Shown one piece after another: positions 2,968 to 14,842 of a stretch of DNA of 26,354 nucleotides (position 1 is its first letter; every line of letters begins with the position of its first letter). The position numbers and the translations under genes are program-made. Origin of the DNA: a virus; the IMG/VR virus record IMGVR_UViG_3300003322_000087, positions 1 to 26,354 of that record; one strand, given 5' to 3'. Below the pieces are notes generated by a model. That model saw only the letters and a list, made by a program, of their open reading frames with translations. It searched no databases and was not told the DNA's origin.

Positions 2968-5505
2968 TCAGATTCCGATGACTCGCCAGCGCGAGGAGGT
3001 GTTGTCGTACCAAAGGTCTACCGCGCCATTCGGCCGGATCACCAGAGCAGCGCTATTCGGGCACAGGAACCGGTTGGCCGCGGTGCTGGTGACGTCGTGG
3101 GAAAGGGTCGCATTGAAGGTGCCGATATTGCATAGGGTGATGCGCTGGCCGTTGGATGGGCTCGCGATGCCGGTGATGTTCAGCGCCGCGTTCGTGCTGA
3201 AGCGGATGACCTTGGCCGTCGACAGGCCCGTGATCGACCAGTTGTCAGTATTGGCCGTGAGCTGAGCCGGCGACACTACGCCAGTGTCGAATCGTGCGCC
3301 GCTGGTATGGATGCTCTTCCAGCGGAATGACGAGTCGCCGAGGTCGTAGGTGTTGTCCGCCCCTGGGCTGGTGCTGGCGGGCTTGAACTCGATAACCGTT
3401 GCTGCGTTGTCGCCAAGGTTGATCACCAGGCCGAACTTGGAAATAAGCGCGGAGGGATCGGCCTGCGTTATTGAGGCGACGAAGCGAGCGACAACGTTGG
3501 TAGAAGCCAATGAACCCGTGCCAGTGGCAAAGTCGAATGAGCACGAGTAGCTCGTATTTTCGGTGCTATTCCGCAGGATTTCGCGTATATTTACCGTGTC
3601 CTCGATATGAATTTTCTGTAACGGCGAGGTCGTGCCGACACCGACGCGATGATTCGTTGAATCGACGTAGACCGTTCCGCCATCGAATGTATAGGTACCG
3701 GTAGCGGTGTCGCCGCTATTGCTCAATGCTCCAAGCGTCGTCCGTGCAGCGGCTGCGTTGGCATCATCGACCAGCGACAGGCCGAAATCTGTTATCGCTT
3801 TCGCTACGAGATCTCCGGTACTCGCCCGCGCCGGGAAGGTGTTGGCGGCGAATGCCACCTGGGAAACAGTGTCGGCGCCGGAGCCGATCGGAAGTGCATT
3901 CGCCGCCCAGTTCTGCGTCACCAATGCTGCGAGCGTTGCGTCCAGAACCGGCGTTAGCGTTCCACCCGCGTCGTTATACGTCCAGGTGATGCCGCTGTTC
4001 GCCGCCGGCTGGATCAGCGCGGACACGCGATCGTCAACGCGCTCATCCGTGTAGTACAGATTGACAGAGCCTTCAGGCAGGGCGTCGGTATTGGTAATCG
4101 ACGTGCCGCCAGTTCCCACCGGGCCGCCGAATTTCGACGCTGGGATGAACTTGGCTTTGGTGGTATTTGATAGATCCGTCGTGCCCTGCTGCACGATCAA
4201 ATAGCACAGCAAAATTCCGTTGTCGGCGATGTTCTGCTCAGTGACGAAGCTCTCGGTGGAAAGCTGCGCCTCCGCTTCAGCCATAGACCCGTACAGGTGT
4301 TGCCCGTACTGCACGCGAATCAGGTTCGACGTGAACACAGTGAATCGCTGGATCGTCCAGCGGTTGGCCGGAGAAATGGCGGCGAGCGTCCCGAGCGGGC
4401 TTTCATAGTTGTTCGGGTCAACGCTGGTCGTCGTCGCGAAGCTTGTGCCGGTGCTCAGGCGGTATTGGAAGCTTGCCGCGGTCAGCCCAGCAAGCGACAG
4501 CCCATGCGGGTTGTTCGGGTCGTTGGTGAAGTTGGACCCCTGCTTGAAAACAATGCCAGACGACTTGTTGATATTGAGGTTGGCACCATTTGCCGAAATC
4601 ACATTGCCCGAAAGGTTCATCGGACCAATGGCGGCCATCAAATCCTGAATCTGATTGATGCCGGCGCGCATCACATCGGGCAGGTTATTGACCGCGATTA
4701 GATTGGTGCCATTGGAAATGACTGCGCCCAGAGGAACGATCGTGCGCCGCTGCGTCGCCGTGAATGGAGAGGACTGCGTGGTGAGTGTTGACCCTGGCGT
4801 CTGGATGCCAACATAAGTGGCAATCACGGCAAGACTGGGAACCGAGTTGGCACTGGTCGGACCATAGGTCGCTACCGTGCGAGTCGGTTGTGCGGGATTG
4901 GTGGAGTAGTCGGTGTAGCCAACGACAGCGGCGGCAACATCGAATTTTGTGTTATCGCCTGCATTGATCGAGAGCGTTCCACCCGAAAGTAGGCCGGTCG
5001 ATTCAAACAGGGCCGGGCGATACCAGCCTTTTGCGCCGGCCATGTTGGTGCCATAGCCGAAGAGAGAGCCTGGGGCCGCCGTGTCGCCATCGAGACGAAA
5101 CGTAACCACTCCATCGGTGCCAACGCTCTTAACAACACTATCGGCTCCAATCAGCGTGCCAGCGACTGAAAACCATCCCTTCGCGCCATCCGTTGTGGTG
5201 CCGTAGTAGTAGGTATTGCCTGGTGCGCTTACGTCATTCTGGAGCTGCACCTGCACCAGCCCGCTATCGAGCGAGCCGAAGACCTGGACCGAAACCAGAC
5301 CTTGGATGACGGCTAGATCCGCATTTTCCAACGCATCCAGCCGCGCGATGATGGCCGCGATCTGTTCAGCGTCGGAACTGCCAGAGTCCACAACCTCTAG
5401 GAGCTTCGCCAGTAGATCGCGCAGGAAATCGTAATACGCCTGCGTCAGCGGGCCACCGGCATTAGCCGGCGCCTGAGCTTTGGGGAGGATCGGCGTCAGT
5501 GCCAT
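2968..5505 (-). CDS. Long tail fibre / receptor-binding protein
   Basis: An 845-residue product; the start is ATG 5505, which forms TAATG with the preceding stop. Residues ~35-70 are a helical, probably trimerising coiled coil. Two copies of a ~26-residue unit follow at about 88-113 and 138-163 (APGNTYYYGTTTDGAKGW and APGSLFGYGTNMAGAKGW). The rest is Thr/Ser/Asn/Gly-rich beta structure typical of fibres, including NLYYTDERVDDRV, VGVGTTSPLQKIHI and a C-terminal VDLWYDNTSSRWRVIGI. No S74 peptidase chaperone or endosialidase motif was seen. The protein lacks an obvious head-binding domain, which sits on the coupled upstream protein. The role is host-surface binding at the virion tail. Confidence 0.85.
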   Translation of the reverse strand: MALTPILPKAQAPANAGGPLTQAYYDFLRDLLAKLLEVVDSGSSDAEQIAAIIARLDALENADLAVIQGLVSVQVFGSLDSGLVQVQLQNDVSAPGNTYYYGTTTDGAKGWFSVAGTLIGADSVVKSVGTDGVVTFRLDGDTAAPGSLFGYGTNMAGAKGWYRPALFESTGLLSGGTLSINAGDNTKFDVAAAVVGYTDYSTNPAQPTRTVATYGPTSANSVPSLAVIATYVGIQTPGSTLTTQSSPFTATQRRTIVPLGAVISNGTNLIAVNNLPDVMRAGINQIQDLMAAIGPMNLSGNVISANGANLNINKSSGIVFKQGSNFTNDPNNPHGLSLAGLTAASFQYRLSTGTSFATTTSVDPNNYESPLGTLAAISPANRWTIQRFTVFTSNLIRVQYGQHLYGSMAEAEAQLSTESFVTEQNIADNGILLCYLIVQQGTTDLSNTTKAKFIPASKFGGPVGTGGTSITNTDALPEGSVNLYYTDERVDDRVSALIQPAANSGITWTYNDAGGTLTPVLDATLAALVTQNWAANALPIGSGADTVSQVAFAANTFPARASTGDLVAKAITDFGLSLVDDANAAAARTTLGALSNSGDTATGTYTFDGGTVYVDSTNHRVGVGTTSPLQKIHIEDTVNIREILRNSTENTSYSCSFDFATGTGSLASTNVVARFVASITQADPSALISKFGLVINLGDNAATVIEFKPASTSPGADNTYDLGDSSFRWKSIHTSGARFDTGVVSPAQLTANTDNWSITGLSTAKVIRFSTNAALNITGIASPSNGQRITLCNIGTFNATLSHDVTSTAANRFLCPNSAALVIRPNGAVDLWYDNTSSRWRVIGI

Positions 5506-6388: not shown

Positions 6389-6577
6389 ATGAGCTGGTTA
6401 ATTGCTTTACTGGTGAAACCATTTATCGGGATCATATTTGTCGCCGTTCTGCTTTTCGGCTCACGAACCGTGGCATTGCTGATTTACCGATTTGCACCAG
6501 ACTGCCGATTGAAGCGATACCTATTCATTGGATGGCGCGTAAACTCGGCCCGCAACACTTCCCGCTTGATTGATTAG
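6389..6577 (+). CDS. Small membrane protein on the opposite strand of the late operon
   Basis: A 62-residue product from ATG 6389, with GGGG about six bases upstream. Residues 3-33 are strongly hydrophobic (SWLIALLVKPFIGIIFVAVL, then a second hydrophobic run), followed by a basic tail RFAPDCRLKRYLF. This layout (LxxLLVKPF... RFxPxxRLKR) resembles small hydrophobic proteins found in other phages, whose role is unknown. It is convergent with the ejection-protein gene and overlaps its 3' end by 57 bases. A TATAAA at 6346-6351 could serve as a -10 element, but no good -35 is seen. It could be a holin-like or superinfection-exclusion protein. That is inference. Confidence 0.6.
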   Translation: MSWLIALLVKPFIGIIFVAVLLFGSRTVALLIYRFAPDCRLKRYLFIGWRVNSARNTSRLID

Positions 6578-8692
6578 TCCTGCAACCTGCTGCACGATCA
6601 TGCGCCGAGACTTCGGCGGCAGCGCCGCTAGAATCTCGGCAGCGCGGTTCGGGTCAAGCATGGCTTCATTGACAATGGCTGCTACTTTTTCGCCGTAGTT
6701 CTTGCGAATGGCATTCAGCGCAAGCAATGCGGCGCCGGAGGCCGGCTCAATCATCGCCGCTCCCACTGGACCCACCGCATCTTGAACGCGGTTGCCGCCT
6801 ATGGCGTTCTGCACGGTATTGCTGCCAACGGCTCTGCCACGATCGCGTGCGCGCGCGTACCGCTCCAGGTCACGACGTACTTCGTCAACAACCTCGATCT
6901 GCCGCGGAGTTAGTACGCGTTCTGCGGTGGCGCGGCGGAAGTTGGTCGCCTTCTGCACGGTGCGATCCAAGTCAGCCGCAGCACCAGCAAACTTGTCCGG
7001 GGATAGCTCCGGGATTTCGCCAATGGCGCGAATGTTAGGCCCCTTGTCGAGTAACGCTTCGCCGACATTCACTTGGCCGATTTTTCGACTCGCCGTCTTG
7101 TAATTGCGCAGGAAGTTGCCCCATTCCGGGAAGTCTTGACGCATCTGCCGGTCGAGCAGGTCGCGAACGGTCATCAGTTCCTTCGTGGCGAGTTTTGCGC
7201 TCTGCTTGCCCTCAACCTGCCCGGACATTAGTTGTCCAATATATTGGCGCAGGAAGTGTGCGTCCTGCACGGTTTTGATGTTTGCTAGCTCTGCGTTGAT
7301 TTCGCTCATCGCCTCGCGGATCGGTCGGTTGGCCTGGTATTTGACAAGCATCCTGTTCAAACCGTTCTGCACTGGGCCAATGTCGCTCACTGGCGTAGTC
7401 GCCAAACCGTGCAAGCTCTGCCGGGCAGCCAAGTCGCGAGCACTGGTCAGCGTCTCGGCCGCTTTGGCATTGGCGCCGCCAAACGCCTCTTCGATGGCCG
7501 CCACGCGGGCGCGGTTGTTTGCTTCCTTGCGCAGGGTAAGCTCGGCGCCGAACTCGGGGGAGTTCGCTAGCGTGCGTTGCAGGCCGCCCAAGCCGATGTC
7601 GCCGGTCGCTTCGGCTGTCGTCGGCAACGATCCGGCCACAAGGCCATGCTTCTGCGTCAGCGCCGCACGCACAGCATCCGGGTCTTGGGAAAACCGCTCG
7701 ATAAATTCGCCTGCTGCGCGCTGCTGGGCGCGCTCGGAGACGGATGGAATGAGGTTGCCTACGAAACGGGTTCCGGCGCCGACGCCACGCGGGATGGCTG
7801 CGCCCCCAAATCCGCCCAAGCCACCCAGGCCGATATTACCCTCGCGGGTTTCGCCTTCTGCTACTGGCTGCAAGCCACCGAAGGCTGCGCCCGAAGCAGT
7901 AGAACCTGGGATGGTCTCCGGCAGGAAAACAGATGATGCGCTCTCCAGCGTAGGCGCTACCCGCGCTAGTTGCGGCACCCGTGATGCTAGTTTCAAGCCT
8001 GCGCCGGGGCCAATGATCTGCAAAACGTTACCGGTGATGTTGCCTGCGAGGCCCGCTCCTGACCGCATCAGCGGCTGATCCAGGCGGCGACGTTCGGTTT
8101 CTTCCTTACGCAGCCGTTCGGATTCCCCCTTGATCGGGAGTACCGCCTTTTCGGCCACGGCCTTTGCGGCTGAATCCAGTCCGATAGCATCCAGCCCTAC
8201 CGCGGTCAAGCCGGCGATGTTGCCTGCGCTATCGGTCGCTAGTTGGCGAACGCCTCTCGGTGTAGACGCAAAGGCCGAGCCCATGCCGGCGCGGAATTTT
8301 TGGCCACCAGTCATTCCCTCTACCGGATCGGGCTGACTCAGGTCATAGCCGAATTTCTCGCCAAAGCCCGTTTCCCGATAGAAGTCGACCGGACTCATGT
8401 CCGGGTAAACTTGACGCCGAATTAAGGTCGCCAGTTGTTGATCTGGCACCTTTTCCAGCTCAGGACGCTTAAAGCGCGCCCAGGCAAGCAAATCCTCGCC
8501 TCGGCCGGGACGCTGCGGGAAAGTGAATTGCGGATCGTCCTGCGGCGACGGCCTGGCAAAGACTGGCTCCAAGTCGGTCACCGGACGCTCAGGCGATGAC
8601 TCGGGCTTGGCGGCGTATTTGCCCCAGGGCCCTGACGCAGATGCCTCTGGCGCCGCCTGAGTCGATTGATAGCGTTCCCAGGGGGCGGCCAT
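6521..8692 (-). CDS. Internal virion / DNA ejection protein (gp16-like position)
   Basis: A 723-residue protein; the start is ATG 8692 in TAATG with the upstream stop. The N-terminus carries repeated PWxxY-type motifs (APWERYQ, GPWGKYA), common in ejection proteins. A Gly/Ala-rich hydrophobic middle follows (residues ~150-330, with GLGGLGGFGGAAIPRGVG), then long charged helices and a C-terminal helix NQAGSVAGRVYAP. P22 gp16 is 609 residues. The gene is the third of three coupled genes in the place of P22 gp7, gp20 and gp16, which are ejected into the cell and help DNA cross the envelope. Assignment rests on order, size and composition. Confidence 0.7.
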   Translation of the reverse strand: MAAPWERYQSTQAAPEASASGPWGKYAAKPESSPERPVTDLEPVFARPSPQDDPQFTFPQRPGRGEDLLAWARFKRPELEKVPDQQLATLIRRQVYPDMSPVDFYRETGFGEKFGYDLSQPDPVEGMTGGQKFRAGMGSAFASTPRGVRQLATDSAGNIAGLTAVGLDAIGLDSAAKAVAEKAVLPIKGESERLRKEETERRRLDQPLMRSGAGLAGNITGNVLQIIGPGAGLKLASRVPQLARVAPTLESASSVFLPETIPGSTASGAAFGGLQPVAEGETREGNIGLGGLGGFGGAAIPRGVGAGTRFVGNLIPSVSERAQQRAAGEFIERFSQDPDAVRAALTQKHGLVAGSLPTTAEATGDIGLGGLQRTLANSPEFGAELTLRKEANNRARVAAIEEAFGGANAKAAETLTSARDLAARQSLHGLATTPVSDIGPVQNGLNRMLVKYQANRPIREAMSEINAELANIKTVQDAHFLRQYIGQLMSGQVEGKQSAKLATKELMTVRDLLDRQMRQDFPEWGNFLRNYKTASRKIGQVNVGEALLDKGPNIRAIGEIPELSPDKFAGAAADLDRTVQKATNFRRATAERVLTPRQIEVVDEVRRDLERYARARDRGRAVGSNTVQNAIGGNRVQDAVGPVGAAMIEPASGAALLALNAIRKNYGEKVAAIVNEAMLDPNRAAEILAALPPKSRRMIVQQVAGLINQAGSVAGRVYAPSNE

Positions 8693-10224
8693 TAGCGCAC
8701 CTGTTCCCAATTCTCAGGGCGGGACGGATCGCCGCCACGAAAACGATAGCCATCCTCTACGTCACCAGGGCTAGGCCCGCGCGGAGCAGCCTGCGTCGGT
8801 TTGGTGGCGACGAGCTTTGCCTGGATGCTGCTGGGCAGTTCGATCGCGACCTGACGCAAGTCCTCCAGCGCCTTGATGAACTCCTCGTCCGACTGCGCCG
8901 TGTCCAAGCGAGCAATTGCCTGCTCCGCCTTGCGGCCTTCTGTTTCAGTGATAGCGCCGCCACCGCGCAGGCTTTGGAAGGCTTGCAGAAACGTGCCGCC
9001 GCGCAGCTGGTCGAGCAACACGCGGAAGTTGGTCGCCTCGGTGCCGGGCAGGAAATTGCGCGGGTCCAGGCGGCTGCTGGCGCCCGTGGCGACTTCGCGG
9101 CCCGGATGCCTCAGGGCGCGGTCGATCAAGGCCACGGTGCGCTGCGACTCGCTCTGCACTTTCGGGAGTAACTGCGTTAGCTCGGCGCGGGTCTGCGCGT
9201 TCTGCTTCGCCTCCTCCGTAGCGCCAGCCGCGGCCGCTTGCTGGTTTGCAAACGATAGCTCGGCCGCCGTCTTTGCTTTCTGCATTGCACCAGCGTTTTC
9301 GGCCTCGATCTGGCCGCGGCGAGGGAGATTGCTCAATTCGACGTTTTCACGCGCAGCGGTCTTGGCGGCCTCCACCTCGGCGGCGGTCGGGTTGCGCTGT
9401 GGGACTGGGCCAGTCGATGCGGCCATCGGCGCTGAACCACCAACCATCATGGGCTGCGACTGCTGATTGCGCATCCACGCTTCCACGGCTTCTTGCGGAA
9501 CGCCAGCGCGCGTCATCTGATTGGCGAAGTCCACGATTTGCTGGTCGCCCATGCGCTGCCCAGCCGGCGGCGTTGTGGAGGTTTGCGAGCCCTCGCCAGC
9601 AGGCCCGATGCCAGTCGTCTGCCCAACAGCACCGCGGCCGGTGGTGACGAGGTACGGCATCTGGCCCGGCTCGTTGATGAGCTGCGTTGTCGGCGATGCC
9701 TTCTGGCCGGTATCGACCACGCGGCCATCGCGCGTGACCAAGCCGATGTTGCCGTTCGCCAAGATCTGCGTGCTCTGGACGTTTGCCTGCTGCCCGGAGT
9801 CCAGCATCGCGATGCGGGCGCGTGCCTCATTGAACTTCGGCTCGGCCTCCGCAAACGTGGCCGGCGGCTCCTGTCCGAAGCGAGCGAGGTACGGACGGAC
9901 CTGCTGATAGGCGGATTCGACCGCCTGCGGATTGCCCGACTTCTGCGCCTGCTCGATGAAAGCTATCGCACCCTTCATCCGTCGCGTCTGAGCATCGCCA
10001 GCCGATTGATATCCCTGCGCTGCATCCGGGTTGATGACGGCAGCCTGATCGTAAGCGCTTGGATCGCCAGCTATTACTTGCGGAGCAAGCTCACGAAGTC
10101 GTTGCTGATCGGCGCGAGCTTCGCTCTCGGCTCGTTGACGTTGTCCCACCTGATAACCCTGCTGTGCCGCGGCTAGAAAATTCGGCTTCTCGATCGCCGC
10201 ATTCACGTCGTAGAAGTTAGCCAT
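8692..10224 (-). CDS. Internal virion / DNA ejection protein (gp20-like position)
   Basis: A 510-residue protein. ATG 10224 was chosen because of TAATG with the upstream stop and GGAGG seven bases before; longer in-frame starts lie inside the previous gene. The sequence is Ala/Gln/Glu-rich and helical with long low-complexity stretches. A conserved C-terminal block (NFRVLLDQLRGGTFLQAF, GGGAITETEGRKAEQAIARL) recurs in internal proteins of many phages, and the extreme C-terminus DGYRFRGGDPSRPENWEQV is also typical. No catalytic motif is seen. P22 gp20 is 471 residues. The likely role is delivery from the capsid to support genome entry. Confidence 0.75.
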   Translation of the reverse strand: MANFYDVNAAIEKPNFLAAAQQGYQVGQRQRAESEARADQQRLRELAPQVIAGDPSAYDQAAVINPDAAQGYQSAGDAQTRRMKGAIAFIEQAQKSGNPQAVESAYQQVRPYLARFGQEPPATFAEAEPKFNEARARIAMLDSGQQANVQSTQILANGNIGLVTRDGRVVDTGQKASPTTQLINEPGQMPYLVTTGRGAVGQTTGIGPAGEGSQTSTTPPAGQRMGDQQIVDFANQMTRAGVPQEAVEAWMRNQQSQPMMVGGSAPMAASTGPVPQRNPTAAEVEAAKTAARENVELSNLPRRGQIEAENAGAMQKAKTAAELSFANQQAAAAGATEEAKQNAQTRAELTQLLPKVQSESQRTVALIDRALRHPGREVATGASSRLDPRNFLPGTEATNFRVLLDQLRGGTFLQAFQSLRGGGAITETEGRKAEQAIARLDTAQSDEEFIKALEDLRQVAIELPSSIQAKLVATKPTQAAPRGPSPGDVEDGYRFRGGDPSRPENWEQVR

Positions 10225-10820
10225 TAGCCGCGCCTCCCGTAGTATTGACTGATCGCGCCAGTGACTTGCTGCCCATAGTTGTTCCACGCATTTGCTGTGT
10301 TCGCGTAACTGGAGGCGCGGGCATTGGCGGCGTTGGTGAGGTTTTCCCCGATGTTGCCGGCCATCCGTGAACCAAGCTCGCCAAGGTTCACGGCCGACTG
10401 CTGGCCCTGGCCGGCGCGGCTAGCAAGACGACTCCAGTAATTGCCGAAGTTCTGTGTTGCGAGTCCTTCGGCGAGAGCGATGCGGTCGGCATCCGCGGCC
10501 CCGCCCATAAAGCCGCCGCGTGCTGCCGCGCCGCGCTCCTGCGACCGCAATCCCTGATCCAGGGCATATGCGTAGTCAGGCGAGGTCTTGAATCCGGAGA
10601 AATCGCCCTTCAGTGCCTCATTTTGCATTCGAAGCGCGTCATAGCCGGCTTCCAAAAACGGAAGCTGATCCTGTCGCGTTAGATCGAACTGACGGCGCTC
10701 TTCCGCAGTCGCTGCTTGCGATGCCGCAACCTGCGCGTTCGCGCCCTTCTCTCCAGCCTTCGCTTGCTGACTGGCTCCGTATGCGCCGACAACGGCGGCT
10801 GCAGCCACACCCCACGGCAT
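10224..10820 (-). CDS. Internal virion / DNA transfer protein (gp7- or gp14-like)
   Basis: A 198-residue protein. ATG 10820 is preceded by GGGAGGTTAATC, an excellent ribosome-binding site overlapping the sulfotransferase stop. A short hydrophobic N-terminus (residues 3-17, Ala/Val) is followed by Ala/Gln-rich helices, the phage-typical LPFLEAGYDALRMQNE and YAYALDQGLRSQERGAAARG segments, and an Asn/Ala-rich C-terminus. Small proteins of this kind precede the two larger ejection proteins in many podoviruses and help form the DNA entry channel. The gp7/gp14 role is inferred from order and motifs. Confidence 0.75.
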   Translation of the reverse strand: MPWGVAAAAVVGAYGASQQAKAGEKGANAQVAASQAATAEERRQFDLTRQDQLPFLEAGYDALRMQNEALKGDFSGFKTSPDYAYALDQGLRSQERGAAARGGFMGGAADADRIALAEGLATQNFGNYWSRLASRAGQGQQSAVNLGELGSRMAGNIGENLTNAANARASSYANTANAWNNYGQQVTGAISQYYGRRG

Positions 10821-10822
10821 GA

Positions 10823-11326
10823 TTAACCTCCCGCCTCGCGGCGCTTCATTTCGTCAAAAACGGATGGATCGAACCGCCATTTGCCCATGTGCGGCTGAAT
10901 TTGGATGTCGCGAAGCATTCGGTAGCGCAGCGCATCGAACGGCATCCCAGGAAGCAGAAAGGCCAGCAGTTCGCTGGCCTTGTCTTCGTCCCAAATGTCG
11001 TCGAAGCGCCATCGCCGGCCGTCGACCTCATGAAGCGTATCGATCAGTCCGGACGTGTCGCCAAGCCCAATGCGGTGCAGCGACCGATCGCATGCTTCCG
11101 GATCACGCTCGATGATCGCCACCGGACACTGTTGCTGAGCCAGCCACTTCGGGAACAAAAACGCCCCGGTGCAGCTGATCCCAAACCGGCGCGCATCGCG
11201 CGGCCATGTCTCGGGCGCACCCAGGGCAAACGGGTCGTGGAGGCATAGCGAGCGGTCTGTGGTTAGCCAGTTCGCTAGCCACGTCGTCCCCGACCGCGGC
11301 AATCCAAGGACGATGAAGTCGATCAC
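10823..11326 (-). CDS. Sulfotransferase-family (PAPS-type P-loop) protein
   Basis: A 167-residue product from GTG 11326, which forms GTGA with the upstream stop; GTG 11338 is an alternative. The N-terminus is FIVLGLPRSGTTWLANWLT, the 5'-phosphosulfate-binding loop of PAPS-dependent sulfotransferases (GLPRSGTTW at residues 8-16). A second motif RDPEACDRS (Arg74, Ser82, spaced by eight) fits the 3'-phosphate-binding element. The protein is shorter than most cellular sulfotransferases (250-350 residues), so the acceptor lobe is reduced. Predicted reaction: transfer of sulfate from PAPS to a hydroxyl or amine. The acceptor is unknown. It lies inside the tail/ejection-protein genes and directly follows a dioxygenase gene. 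Confidence 0.8.
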   Translation of the reverse strand: MIDFIVLGLPRSGTTWLANWLTTDRSLCLHDPFALGAPETWPRDARRFGISCTGAFLFPKWLAQQQCPVAIIERDPEACDRSLHRIGLGDTSGLIDTLHEVDGRRWRFDDIWDEDKASELLAFLLPGMPFDALRYRMLRDIQIQPHMGKWRFDPSVFDEMKRREAGG

Positions 11327-11871
11327 AGTCTGATACACACGATCAGGGTGATCCGCTCGCTATCGGAGTCGTTGCGGACCCAATGAAGGCGCGAATTGTC
11401 GAAGGTGTAGGAATCGCCTGGCACCGGACGAAGCTCTGCGTCTTCGAAGCAAAACGCCTGATCCCGATTGCCTTTTATTTGGATGGCGAACTTCTGATAC
11501 CTGCCGGCGTGCCAACCTCCGTCGACATGCGGCTTGACTTCGCCCCCGGGCGGAATCTTCGTCACCAGCACCCCGCCCAATTGCGAGCCCTGCACGTCGG
11601 CGAACAACCGGTAGACGAGTTCTCGCAGTGCTGGCAGCTTCGCCATCACTGGATACCACTCGGACTCGTGTGGTCCGTTGAAGAAAACCACCGGATCGTC
11701 ACCCATGTTCTGAATCGGATTGAAGCGGCACCAAATATCCGACACGTCAGAATGGGGAGACCCGTAGCGCTCGACCCGATCGCGATACAGGTCCCAAACG
11801 TCGGGCTGCTCCAACTCGCGCGCCACTGCCGCCACGTCATAACGCAGCGGCAAGTATTCGATCGATGCCAT
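11323..11871 (-). CDS. Aspartyl/asparaginyl beta-hydroxylase-like Fe(II)/2-oxoglutarate dioxygenase
   Basis: A 182-residue protein; ATG 11871 is in TAATG with the upstream stop. The C-terminal half holds a jelly-roll core with VKPHVDGGW (His115, Asp117), then RLHWVRN (His163) and Arg173 ten residues on. This is the HxD...H...R set that binds iron and 2-oxoglutarate in the aspartyl/asparaginyl hydroxylase branch. The sequence GDSYTFDNSRLHW, where a cupin strand precedes the distal His, supports the fold. All metal and cosubstrate residues are present, so it is probably active. The substrate could be a virion protein or a small molecule. It is coupled to the sulfotransferase by GTGA and to the gp10 C-terminal piece by TAATG. 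Confidence 0.8.
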   Translation of the reverse strand: MASIEYLPLRYDVAAVARELEQPDVWDLYRDRVERYGSPHSDVSDIWCRFNPIQNMGDDPVVFFNGPHESEWYPVMAKLPALRELVYRLFADVQGSQLGGVLVTKIPPGGEVKPHVDGGWHAGRYQKFAIQIKGNRDQAFCFEDAELRPVPGDSYTFDNSRLHWVRNDSDSERITLIVCIRL

Positions 11872-12092
11872 TAACCCACCGTTGGCTGAAGAACCACCAC
11901 CGCGCCAAGCAGATCCCGGCGCCGTGGGCTGGAGCAGCGGATGCGCACTACGCGCTGCCGGAACGAGCCAAGTCGCGTGAACGTGATGCGCTTTCCGTAT
12001 TCGCCCACCTCTCCGATGGGTTCCTCCCGCCAGTTATCGAAGATAGGCTGGCCGTCATCAGCGAACTGGACGCGGACGTATTGGTCGCTCAT
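11871..12092 (-). CDS. Separate C-terminal piece of the gp10-like tail factor
   Basis: A 73-residue product. ATG 12092 overlaps the stop of the 778-residue gp10-like gene (ATGA). Its sequence (YVRVQFADDGQPIFDNW, GEVGEYGKRITFTRLGS, RQRVVRIRCSSPRRRDLLGAV) is what ends intact P22 gp10-type packaged-DNA-stabilisation proteins, with the layout DDGxxxxxxxW...G..GxY..R..W.RLGS. It therefore looks like the natural C-terminal beta segment of gp10 made as its own polypeptide, with the added domains lying before it in the other frame. It probably completes the tail-hub fold in trans. Confidence 0.7.
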   Translation of the reverse strand: MSDQYVRVQFADDGQPIFDNWREEPIGEVGEYGKRITFTRLGSFRQRVVRIRCSSPRRRDLLGAVVVLQPTVG

Positions 12093-14425
12093 GCGGGGAT
12101 CCCGAAGGCCACGGAACGAATACTGGTGGTGCCGAACGGACTGGTGGCCGCGTTCCAGGTCACGCCCAGGTCGGTCGAGTAGAAGATTTCGCCGTTGTCG
12201 CCGACGACCACGAACGTTCCCAGTCCATACTCAACGTCATTGGCGAAGGTCATCGTCGGATGTGTCGGCACGGAATAGCTGGCCCAATCGCTGGTTTTCA
12301 GCAACACATTGCTGTCGCCAACCGCAATGCCCACGCCGCCACCGAAAGCCAAGGCGCGGATCGCGGTCGTCTGCGATCGCTGCGTCGTCCAGGTAACGCC
12401 GGTCGGCGACGTTGCTATGACGGCGCCCGTACCCGACGTAGGCGCGGCGCAGGCAACGAACTGCGTGCCATCCCAAATAATGTCCTGGGTGTCGGCGCCC
12501 GTCTGGAACGAGGCCGTGTTGTTGGCGAAGGTGGTTCCGTCCGTGCTGCGCTGCACGGTGTTGTTGGCGTCGCCGAACAGAATCGTCGTCGCGGTGCCGC
12601 ATGCCGCCAGGACCGTATTCGTACCGGTGACGGTCGTCGTTGACGTCCAACTCGTGCCGTCGGCCGACTTGAAACAGGTTCCGCTGTTGACGCCTACCCA
12701 CCAATCCGACAGGCCATAGGCGATCGGCAGACGCGTGAACGTGGCCGGCGTCGGCGTCAGCGTCCGATCGGTCCAGGTGATGCCGTCCGGGCTCGTCTTG
12801 AACGTTAGCGGGTTGGAGCCGGCCAGCACGAACAGGCCATTGCCGTACCCGCACTCCAACAGATTGTTGCTGGTGCCGGCACTCTGCAGCGTCCAGTTGA
12901 TGCCGTCCGGTGAGGTGGCGACCTTGCCGGCGAGGCCAACGGCGACGAACAAGCCCGCCTCGATCACGTCGATTGTGTCGGTCACTTCATCCCATAGGCC
13001 ATTCGCATCCGTCACGCGAACGGTGAATGCCGAACTTCCGACCGTCGTGGGAGTCCCGGTGAGCAGTCCGCCGACACTGAGCGACAACCCTGCCGGCAAC
13101 GTGCCGGTATGCACCGACACCGTAAGTCCACCCGTACCGCCAGCGATCGTGTACTGGTACGGCGTGTAGGCGACGCCTTGCTGTCCGCCAGGCGCATTGC
13201 CGCTTATCGTTGGCGCATCGGGCTGAGCCGCGAACGTGCGCGCCTCGACCTCCGGCATGCCCGTGTCCATGATCAGTTCCAACCGCGGCATCAGCACGCG
13301 CGACTGGTTGTCGTGAACCACCGGGCTGGTGATCTCGGAGATGAACTCCTGATCGCCTTCCAAGGGGTAGCCCCAATCCAGCTCCCACAGCTTTCCGGCC
13401 TGGAAATCGCCAGCGATCCAGCGGTTTTGCCAATAAGCCATGCCGGTCACGCGCCAGCGGTCGAAGCCATACGAGGCGCGACGGTGCCACTTCTGCTGGC
13501 TGGCGTCGTACCCGAACGTCAGCCCATCGGGGAACGTCCAATAGGCCACTGAATGGCCGGAGTCCTCCCACACGAAGGCGAACGCCTGATCCCAATTGAG
13601 TCCGCGAATGGCCTGCTCGATCGGACGCGTGGAGATTCGACGCGGGGAATAGCCGTCCAGAAGATAGAACACGCCGTCGTCACCAAGCCACATGACGGTG
13701 TTGTCCATCGTCACAACGGTATAGCGGCCGGCGCAGCCCTTGTTGAAGCTGATGCGCTTACTTTGGAACGGCTGCTGCGCGGCTCCCGAGTTGTAGAAGA
13801 ACTCCGTCGTGCGTTCGGAGAACAGGATCAGTTCGTTGTTGCTGACCGCGAGCGCCACCAACAGGTCAGGCGCTACTTCTGAGGTGAAGCGGTCCAACGT
13901 GTTGTAGCTGAGCGCGTCAGCAAGATCGGAATGGAACGCGAAACGTCGCGCTGGCTCGATCTGGATTAGGTATCCGTCAATGAAGACGGCATCGATTGCT
14001 CCCGGATAGCCGGTATCGGTGATCTGCGTGAACTGGCTGGTGACCGTATTCCAAACCCACCCCGCCGATCCGTTGACCATCAGGACTTCATTGCCGCCCG
14101 TGATCTGATTGTGGGCGAACCGCACCCGGCCGACGCCGGAGATAGCGCCCAGCGGGATCGCCACGCCGGTATTGCTAATTTGGTAGGCCGTATTGCCGGC
14201 AACAGTGAAGAGTCGGCCTTCTGCGTCGTAGACGCCACGAATCGGGTCAGTGACACCCGTATCCACGAACGGCGAAAGCCCAGGGGGCGTCTTCGCCATG
14301 GTCGACGTACGCGTGCCCTCGCCTTCAGTGGCGACGGGCAGGTAATTGCAAATGTCCTGCATCGACCACGGACGGGTTTCGTCCGCATAAAAGCCGCCGA
14401 TGAGCGGGAGCGGTTGCGCGCGCAC
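12089..14425 (-). CDS. gp10-like packaged-DNA stabilisation protein with added Ig and propeller-like domains
   Basis: A 778-residue protein from GTG 14425, directly after the upstream stop. Residues 1-~400 resemble P22 gp10 (472 residues), the tail-hub factor that closes the portal channel: LIGGFYADETRPWSMQDICN, then GYLIQIEPARRFAFHSDLAD and later KLWELDWG. Residues ~404-489 form an Ig-like putative domain (GTLPAGLSLSVGGLLTGTP is the signature). Residues ~490-778 contain repeated BNR/Asp-box-like units (SPDGINWT, SPDGITWT, SADGTSWT, STDGTTF, SPTGVTWT, STDLGVTWN), suggesting a beta-propeller. The usual gp10 C-terminus is missing here and occurs as the next frame. The added domains may bind glycans or the cell surface. 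That is inference. Confidence 0.75.
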   Translation of the reverse strand: MRAQPLPLIGGFYADETRPWSMQDICNYLPVATEGEGTRTSTMAKTPPGLSPFVDTGVTDPIRGVYDAEGRLFTVAGNTAYQISNTGVAIPLGAISGVGRVRFAHNQITGGNEVLMVNGSAGWVWNTVTSQFTQITDTGYPGAIDAVFIDGYLIQIEPARRFAFHSDLADALSYNTLDRFTSEVAPDLLVALAVSNNELILFSERTTEFFYNSGAAQQPFQSKRISFNKGCAGRYTVVTMDNTVMWLGDDGVFYLLDGYSPRRISTRPIEQAIRGLNWDQAFAFVWEDSGHSVAYWTFPDGLTFGYDASQQKWHRRASYGFDRWRVTGMAYWQNRWIAGDFQAGKLWELDWGYPLEGDQEFISEITSPVVHDNQSRVLMPRLELIMDTGMPEVEARTFAAQPDAPTISGNAPGGQQGVAYTPYQYTIAGGTGGLTVSVHTGTLPAGLSLSVGGLLTGTPTTVGSSAFTVRVTDANGLWDEVTDTIDVIEAGLFVAVGLAGKVATSPDGINWTLQSAGTSNNLLECGYGNGLFVLAGSNPLTFKTSPDGITWTDRTLTPTPATFTRLPIAYGLSDWWVGVNSGTCFKSADGTSWTSTTTVTGTNTVLAACGTATTILFGDANNTVQRSTDGTTFANNTASFQTGADTQDIIWDGTQFVACAAPTSGTGAVIATSPTGVTWTTQRSQTTAIRALAFGGGVGIAVGDSNVLLKTSDWASYSVPTHPTMTFANDVEYGLGTFVVVGDNGEIFYSTDLGVTWNAATSPFGTTSIRSVAFGIPA

Positions 14426-14842
14426 TCAGTAGTCCCACACCGTCGAGCGCAAGCGCGTGGCATCGCCTTCGGCCTGCGGCAGTGGAACGTCCAGAATCGG
14501 ACGGATCGGCGTCGCTACCATCTGGTCACGGAGCAGGTCATTCAGTCCGCTATCCGCACCCTCACGCACGAGATCCGGAACTGGCGTTCCGTACTCAGGG
14601 GCCAGTTTCTTCGCGAGGTTGTAGGCAACGGCCTCTTCGGCCTCTTCCGGCAACGGCAACGGATCGGAGGGGTTTTCAACAGACTGCCAACCCAAGGCCA
14701 GGCCATCGGCTTCCCAACGGCGAAGCATGGCGTTCAACGCCTCGATCGCCGTGGTCATATCCGTTGCTTTGACCGGCTGCGTCGGATCGATCACCTGGAT
14801 CAGTCGCAGCGAGCGCGCAACTAGCGTGGCAGTCGTCGTCAT
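14426..14842 (-). CDS. gp4-like tail accessory / head-completion protein
   Basis: A 138-residue helical protein from ATG 14842. The segments IEALNAMLRRWEADGLALGW and PLPEEAEEAVAYNLAKKLAPEYG are the hallmark of the P22 gp4 family, the factor that binds below the portal and starts tail assembly (P22 gp4 is 166 residues). It follows a terminator and precedes the gp10-like gene with no gap, the same order as in P22. In P22, gp4 also has muramidase activity; no comparable catalytic residues can be assigned here. Confidence 0.8.
   Translation of the reverse strand: MTTTATLVARSLRLIQVIDPTQPVKATDMTTAIEALNAMLRRWEADGLALGWQSVENPSDPLPLPEEAEEAVAYNLAKKLAPEYGTPVPDLVREGADSGLNDLLRDQMVATPIRPILDVPLPQAEGDATRLRSTVWDY

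Follow-up and report, generated by a model that had tools for sequence, protein, structure and literature searches.

In P22, gene 14 lies directly before gene 7, and in T7, gene 13 lies directly before gene 14; in both phages, a small protein gene stands immediately upstream of the gene for a small ejection protein. The T7 counterpart of this ejection protein, gp14, leaves the virion ahead of the other ejection proteins and makes the outer-membrane pore, and its residues 1–78 lie inside the gp15 dome (PMC8954989). In P22, host OpdA cleaves off the first 20 residues of gp7, a protein that may bridge the conduit and the conserved gp10 (PMC10883804). No enzymatic activity was assigned to P22 gp14 or T7 gp13 in the published sources that we examined. 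In the present study, we analyzed a virus record of 26,354 bases (IMG/VR IMGVR_UViG_3300003322_000087, positions 1 to 26,354), hereafter the window, in which this position is taken by a predicted Fe(II)/2-oxoglutarate (2OG) hydroxylase (OG) and a compact PAPS-type sulfotransferase (ST). P22 gene 14 and T7 gene 13 encode different protein families, with no hydroxylase or sulfotransferase among them. Based on sequence comparisons and structure models, we consider it somewhat probable that OG and ST are virion-maturation enzymes acting on the N-terminus of the gp7-like ejection protein. The pattern suggests that they would finish the tip of an injection protein rather than alter host metabolism.

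The P22-like late block of the window lies on the minus strand. It runs from TerL, portal, scaffold and coat (names taken from sequence reading and similarity order, not from profiles) through a gp4-like head-tail adaptor (14426..14842; PF11650, 1.6e-6; phrog_637, 8e-23) and a gp10-like hub to OG and ST, which are followed by a gp7-like ejection protein, two more ejection-type proteins, a 275-aa protein and a fibre. OG (11323..11871, 182 aa) and ST (10823..11326) were found on the minus strand where the first-pass annotation had placed them, and the translational coupling that it described between them was borne out by the GTGA overlap of the OG stop and the ST start (11323..11326). The ST ORF is open as far as GTG 11338; the start at GTG 11326, giving 167 aa, was preferred because of the GTGA coupling and because relatives also begin M-I-D-F there. 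Upstream, the reported TAATG coupling of OG to the tail hub was present as a junction (11869..11873), but the partner proved to be a separate 73-aa ORF (11871..12092) carrying a C-terminal piece of gp10 (phrog_578 409–468; phrog_19101). This ORF has an ATGA overlap with the hub ORF (12089..14425), which comprises the N-terminal 392 residues of gp10 (phrog_578, 1.3e-102 over 1–392) and extra C-terminal domains. The split hub spans 11871–14425, and its 778-aa ORF corresponds to gp10 1–400 plus an Ig-like, repeat-rich extra part; a long hub ORF with a short ORF of about 71–74 aa was also observed in the comparison loci L010, L021, L027, L040, L041, L054 and L178. The coupling to the downstream ejection genes was as first described. 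A 2-nt gap separates ST from the gp7-like gene (10224..10820, 198 aa), whose Shine-Dalgarno GGGAGG (10827..10832) lies within the ST 3' end, and a TAATG junction joins the gp7-like gene to the second ejection gene (8692..10224, start ATG 10224 by this coupling; phrog_2534). The third ejection-type protein (6521..8710, 729 aa) was assigned by position and gave no informative family match in Pfam and PHROG profile searches. As previously noted, no gp26-like needle lies between the hub and the ejection genes of the window.

To evaluate the integrity of OG, we combined profile, alignment and structure-based analyses. OG scored 31.4 bits against the Pfam family Asp_Arg_Hydrox (PF05118), above the cut-off of 22.6. 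In an 80-row alignment of relatives reaching down to 38% identity with the window protein, the iron-site residues H115, D117 and H163 and the 2OG-site residue R173 were invariant. The AlphaFold2 model had a pLDDT of 96.5 and showed the double-stranded beta-helix fold, and a Foldseek search against the PDB returned 598 matches at E<=1e-3 with 2OG hydroxylases at the top. The fold neighbours included L-proline cis-4-hydroxylase, a nucleoside-antibiotic hydroxylase, proline 3-hydroxylase and AspH, the nearest solved fold being L-proline cis-4-hydroxylase 4p7w (E 9.7e-9). By score, site and fold, OG is a PF05118 member and a predicted hydroxylase, which agrees with the complete-looking enzyme of the first-pass annotation. 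The LpxO equivalog of NCBIfam gave 18.6 bits, below its cut-off of 500.

ST carries the P-loop GLPRSGTTW (5'-PSB) and the motif RDPEACDRS (3'-PB). It matched the phage family phrog_10855 at 1.9e-34 (residues 5–160 of 171) and scored below both Pfam sulfotransferase cut-offs (Sulfotransfer_1, 13.3 of 22 bits; Sulfotransfer_3, 20.1 of 27). Among 64 aligned relatives, P14, R15, W20 and H34 were invariant, and S16, T18 and R78 were kept in at least 90%. The AlphaFold2 model had a pLDDT of 94.9, and Foldseek returned only three PDB matches at E<=1e-3, all of them SULT enzymes; the best, SULT2A1 and SULT2B1b, were modest (E 3e-4 to 8e-4, TM 0.47–0.51 on the query). A weak similarity to the LPS sulfotransferase NodH was also observed. 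ST is a sulfotransferase by motif, predicted fold and phrog family, though not by Pfam cut-off, and the earlier reading of a compact PAPS-type enzyme held in this form. Structure prediction, proposed earlier as a check on both active sites, modelled the two proteins as intact enzymes. ST-family relatives mostly carry a hydrolase or NTP hydrolase annotation, and the family name "hydrolase" looks wrong for them. The ST relatives of Pseudomonas and Stenotrophomonas siphophages in L014, L015 and L017 are labelled NTP hydrolase, and one record reads "similar to sulfotransferase". Siphophages of both Pseudomonas and Stenotrophomonas had ST but lacked OG and a gp7-like gene; loci of this kind (e.g., in Pseudomonas siphophages) accounted for 30 of the 69 ST clusters, so ST is not tied to OG as a partner.

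About 30 divergent phages share the OG-ST pair, with either gene coming first. With the earlier ST profile and start-codon ORFs, ST adjoined OG in 22 of 78 OG clusters (16 ST-OG, 6 OG-ST; 90% identity, scans aimed at OG), and OG adjoined ST in 31/69 ST clusters. A recount over all distinct OG sequences, using clean profiles and including ST-driven loci, placed ST next to OG in 38/106 (24 ST-OG, 14 OG-ST). The clean ST profile was built from trimmed alignments and also served for the N-terminus counts below. The ST proteins share 18–76% identity with the window ST, and this range together with the two gene orders indicated that the association arose repeatedly. The pair was also found within a bacterial genome (L180, Lysobacter gilvus HX-5-24), and Rhodanobacteraceae bacterium ZG21-1 (L179) carries OG; most OG phages are without ST. 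The first-pass annotation had placed the pair at the boundary between hub and ejection genes. Co-occurrence far beyond chance was confirmed in both orders, but the conserved neighbour turned out to be the gp7-like ejection gene and not the hub. A gp7-like gene lay one to three genes downstream in 67 of 84 OG loci (+1 in 42, +2 in 22, +3 in 3), and the hub was the immediate neighbour of OG in only 19/84. In the other 17 loci, OG was mostly followed by a protein without detectable gp7 similarity that had the same MP[WFY] hydrophobic N-terminus, with starts such as MPWGVAAAG, MPWGAVIGA, MPWAAAAAV, MPYGFAAAA and MPFAVSAVA. A tblastn search of the phage isolate collection yielded no relative of the window's gp7-like protein, so most of the material compared here comes from metagenomic contigs and bacterial genomes. 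In L002, an HNH-type gene (4603-5064) lies between OG and the gp7-like gene, and the downstream protein starts VASPWG, with no clear M-P start. Limnohabitans phage DC33 (L013, PQ492659.1; 39 kb) has OG and a GNAT gene before a short hydrophobic ORF; the record's assignment to Inoviridae is at odds with this size and gene content.

The gp7-like protein of the window (phrog_598, DNA ejection, 3.4e-31) begins MPWGVAAAAV, with Pro-Trp-Gly encoded by codons 2–4 (10809..10817). We compared the N-termini of ejection proteins whose starts had been called by Shine-Dalgarno score and start codon, blind to residue 2. Among 95 non-redundant gp7-like proteins, Pro2 was present in 47/53 with OG versus 5/42 without. 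The six exceptions with OG consisted of four proteins with a divergent OG, which start MVA, and two miscalled fragments. In an enlarged set (combined scans at 80% identity, loci selected on the N-terminus left out), Met-Pro followed by Trp or Phe (MP+aromatic) occurred in 42/48 with OG versus 3/64 without, with a Fisher value of 1e-20 that overstates certainty, as does the one given below, because the counts treat sequences as independent. When only proteins with an aromatic residue 3 were considered, Pro2 was found in 42/42 with OG against 3/31 without. The loci with OG but no GNAT had Pro2 in 43/45, compared with 11/67 of the others, and MP+aromatic in 42/45. Mutual information with the enzyme class in this slot peaked at residue 2 (z 21.9); it was lower at residue 3 (z 12.6) and over residues 4–6 (z about 10). 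In the reverse test, for which the scan was selected on MPW[GT][AF], OG was directly upstream of all 24 new MPW-starting gp7-like proteins (24/24). In a scan selected on an internal motif, 6/22 proteins without OG had Pro2; residue 3 was non-aromatic in all six, and the slot held a DUF2824-like gene in five of them. When the first long gene after OG was taken with no gp7 profile, MP+aromatic was seen in 74/96 loci; the OG loci of bacterial genomes gave 12/13, the 13th being MMPWG. Collectively, the sequence data strongly indicated a link between OG and the N-terminus of the ejection protein.

This link is confounded chiefly by the possibility that OG and the neighbouring 5' end of the ejection gene were transferred together. 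It is conceivable, though unlikely, that the OG substrate lies elsewhere and that the MP[WFY] start merely travels with OG through recombination of the ejection-gene 5' end with the preceding gene. The OG gene and the MP[WFY] site are adjacent, podophage ejection genes are mosaic, and the association is weakly spread over residues 3–10; because of this weaker signal, part of the association may reflect shared descent or joint transfer. To assess the contribution of descent, we built a tree of ejection-protein bodies without the first 35 residues, on which the minimum number of changes was 20 for OG and 19 for P2. The well-supported branches yielded six independent pairs, with P2 going with OG in 3.7 and against it in 0.0 (p 0.125). 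Such supported contrasts are few; they are consistent with the OG-P2 link and too few to suffice alone. Two sister switches were observed, one between L037 (OG+ST, MPWGAV) and L299 (cupin, MTWGMV), and the other between L027 (OG+ST, MPWGVV) and L280 (cupin, MTFIAL). L280, with a cupin in place of OG and the start MTF, has the nearest body to the window ejection protein (58% identity). Several results speak against linked descent as the explanation. Pro2 was fixed across OG proteins differing at up to 60% of residues, across downstream proteins without detectable similarity, and across intervening genes; the signal peaked at residue 2, whereas the aromatic residue 3 is common to the cupin-only group; and most slot enzymes have an N-terminal class of their own. 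MP+aromatic was present in 14/14 loci where OG and the ejection gene were 31–300 bases apart. As the start is constant across these gaps and in downstream proteins that cannot be aligned, joint transfer is unlikely to be the whole story. Among the loci selected on GP7, only two with OG were left after redundancy removal. Among phages with ST only, L145, L152, L130 and L164 begin MPW without OG in the record, most records being fragments; a search for OG elsewhere in ten ST-only records, many of them fragments, found none. Two near relatives of these phages that have an ST of the same type, L144 and L150, begin MAF. L144 and L145 have the ST and the ejection-protein body in common and differ in the first ~25 residues (MAFITG versus MPWMLP).

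The first-pass annotation had suggested that the pair sulfates a virion protein or host surface molecules. Of these two targets, the present data favour the virion protein, and since the presence of OG predicts Pro2 and an aromatic residue 3, they point to the gp7-like N-terminus as the single target site. In the proposed mechanism, host methionine aminopeptidase would remove Met1, as it normally does when residue 2 is a proline, so that the gp7-like protein starts Pro-Trp-Gly. OG would then hydroxylate the exposed N-terminal proline using Fe(II), 2OG and O2, and ST, where present, would transfer sulfate from PAPS to the new hydroxyl. The tip of the small ejection protein would be modified before packaging, and a charged or hydroxylated tip could affect insertion, solubility or how the protein packs beneath the core. 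The predicted kinship of the OG fold to free-L-proline hydroxylases would suit an N-terminal proline with a free amine. We regard the gp7-like N-terminus as the probable substrate, and there is about an even chance that Pro2 is the hydroxylated residue. It seems rather doubtful that ST acts on the same residue as OG; the sulfation step is the least supported part and needs only that ST use the new hydroxyl. The mature tryptic N-terminal peptide of the window protein, PWGVAAAAVVGAYGASQQAK, has a computed mass of 1900.980, which would become 1916.974 when hydroxylated and 1996.931 when hydroxylated and sulfated.

Two other targets were weighed against this mechanism. The substrate of the enzymes might be a different virion protein or an internal position (ejection proteins 2–3, hub or fibre), with the gp7-like N-terminus serving as a docking tag or packaging signal. 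The entire block consists of late virion genes, and PF05118 contains enzymes for folded protein domains, as the AspH fold matches illustrate; however, of the two flanking genes, the gp7-like gene alone is constant, and we judged this alternative fairly improbable. The enzymes might also be moron or auxiliary genes that alter host molecules, hydroxylating lipid A as LpxO does and sulfating the envelope, to serve exclusion or metabolism. PF05118 includes LpxO, to which OG gave the weak NCBIfam match mentioned above, ST has its weak similarity to NodH, and auxiliary genes listed in the literature include an aspartyl hydroxylase as well as phage 2OG oxygenases (PMC11288001). Nevertheless, OG and ST lie inside a virion operon in a fixed position before the ejection gene, and lipid targets would leave the N-terminal code unexplained. 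We judged host molecules to be very improbable targets.

Other enzyme families were found in the same slot. In phages with only a cupin there, the ejection protein starts Met-Ser/Thr followed by Trp or Phe (M[ST]+aromatic) in 23/23 (Fisher value 2e-24), and the aromatic residue 3 is common to the OG and cupin-only groups. Loci with a small cupin, no OG and the start M[ST][WF] include L283, L288, L295, L298, L339, L423, L445 and others. The divergent OG with GNAT, a combination present in Pseudomonas phage PfAn1, was accompanied by MV in 3/3, and a DUF6445 slot by M[AG] in 7/8. The DUF2824-like slot was mixed, with six MP+aliphatic, four M[AG] and three M[ST]; since MP+aliphatic starts also occur with this slot class, OG is not the only slot gene accompanied by Pro2. 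DUF6445 (PF20043) proteins with IHSD...FHS...GRL precede gp7-like genes in L302 (2960-3508), L305 (3242-3850), L325 and L326, and these proteins look like a second 2OG oxygenase family by sequence. In P22 (L192), gp14 (DUF2824; 8911-9366) lies directly before gp7 and is annotated as a virion stability factor or head morphogenesis protein. P22 gp14 matched (E 2e-14) the DUF2824-like proteins that metagenomic relatives have in this slot. It appeared likely by eye to be a GNAT, but this assignment was rejected, with no match from three-sequence profiles and only DUF2824 from Pfam; one DUF2824-like slot protein had a sub-threshold GNAT match. A distant relationship of OG or ST to P22 gp14 was likewise rejected, with no hhalign match. 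In T7 (L491), gp13 (1808-2224) takes the same position; downstream of it, after 4 bases, comes gene 14, whose product begins MCWAAA. The end of T7 gp13 resembles GNAT by eye, a likeness that profiles did not confirm, and T7 gp13 had no match to the slot profiles.

Since P22 gp14 and T7 gp13, labelled morphogenesis or scaffold proteins, stand in the same place, we also considered that OG and ST might be catalytically dead, or might be assembly chaperones that recognise the N-terminus of the ejection protein. A chaperone would likewise co-vary with the N-terminus of its client. On the other hand, the catalytic residues are invariant (HxD/H/R in 80 OG, PR/W/H in 64 ST), and unrelated enzyme families alternate in the slot, which makes this explanation improbable. 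It could equally well be the case as not that many podophages have an exchangeable slot of protein-modifying enzymes directly before the small ejection gene, each class matched to its own N-terminus and finishing the injection tip. The slot classes would then comprise, with the same even degree of confidence, the PF05118 hydroxylase, the sulfotransferase, the cupin, GNAT, DUF6445 and the DUF2824-like proteins including P22 gp14.

It is routine to class phage genes for hydroxylases, acetyltransferases and the like as auxiliary metabolic genes, and in the literature that we examined, phage 2OG oxygenases were treated as auxiliary genes or left unassigned. We found no report in the open-access literature of phage sulfotransferase-hydroxylase pairs or of hydroxylation or sulfation of an ejection protein. 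The use of a PF05118 enzyme on an ejection protein would be new. The odds are roughly balanced that finishing of an injection tip by dedicated enzymes represents a kind of virion maturation for which no description was found in that literature. If the proposed mechanism is true, a whole group of such genes would be virion-assembly machinery; the unexplained P22 gene 14, and possibly T7 gene 13, would gain a testable role; a bacterial route to N-terminal hydroxyproline, perhaps sulfated, would be revealed; and infectivity would be tied to oxygen and PAPS supply. The role of the small genes before ejection proteins would then become directly testable.

Compared with known enzymes, OG resembles L-proline cis-4-hydroxylase (4p7w, 4p7x) and proline 3-hydroxylase (1e5r, 1e5s), which are also 2OG-dependent iron hydroxylases; the TM with 4p7w and 4p7x is 0.67–0.71 on the query at 17% identity. 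The solved proline hydroxylases differ from OG in that they act on the free amino acid, are longer (243–286 residues in the entries) and are not encoded in phage virion operons. OG has its family, PF05118, in common with AspH and LpxO, but it has no link to EGF domains or lipid A. ST has the P-loop and 3'-phosphate motifs in common with the cytosolic PAPS sulfotransferases (SULT2A1 and others), although it is much more compact, with 167 aa versus about 290.
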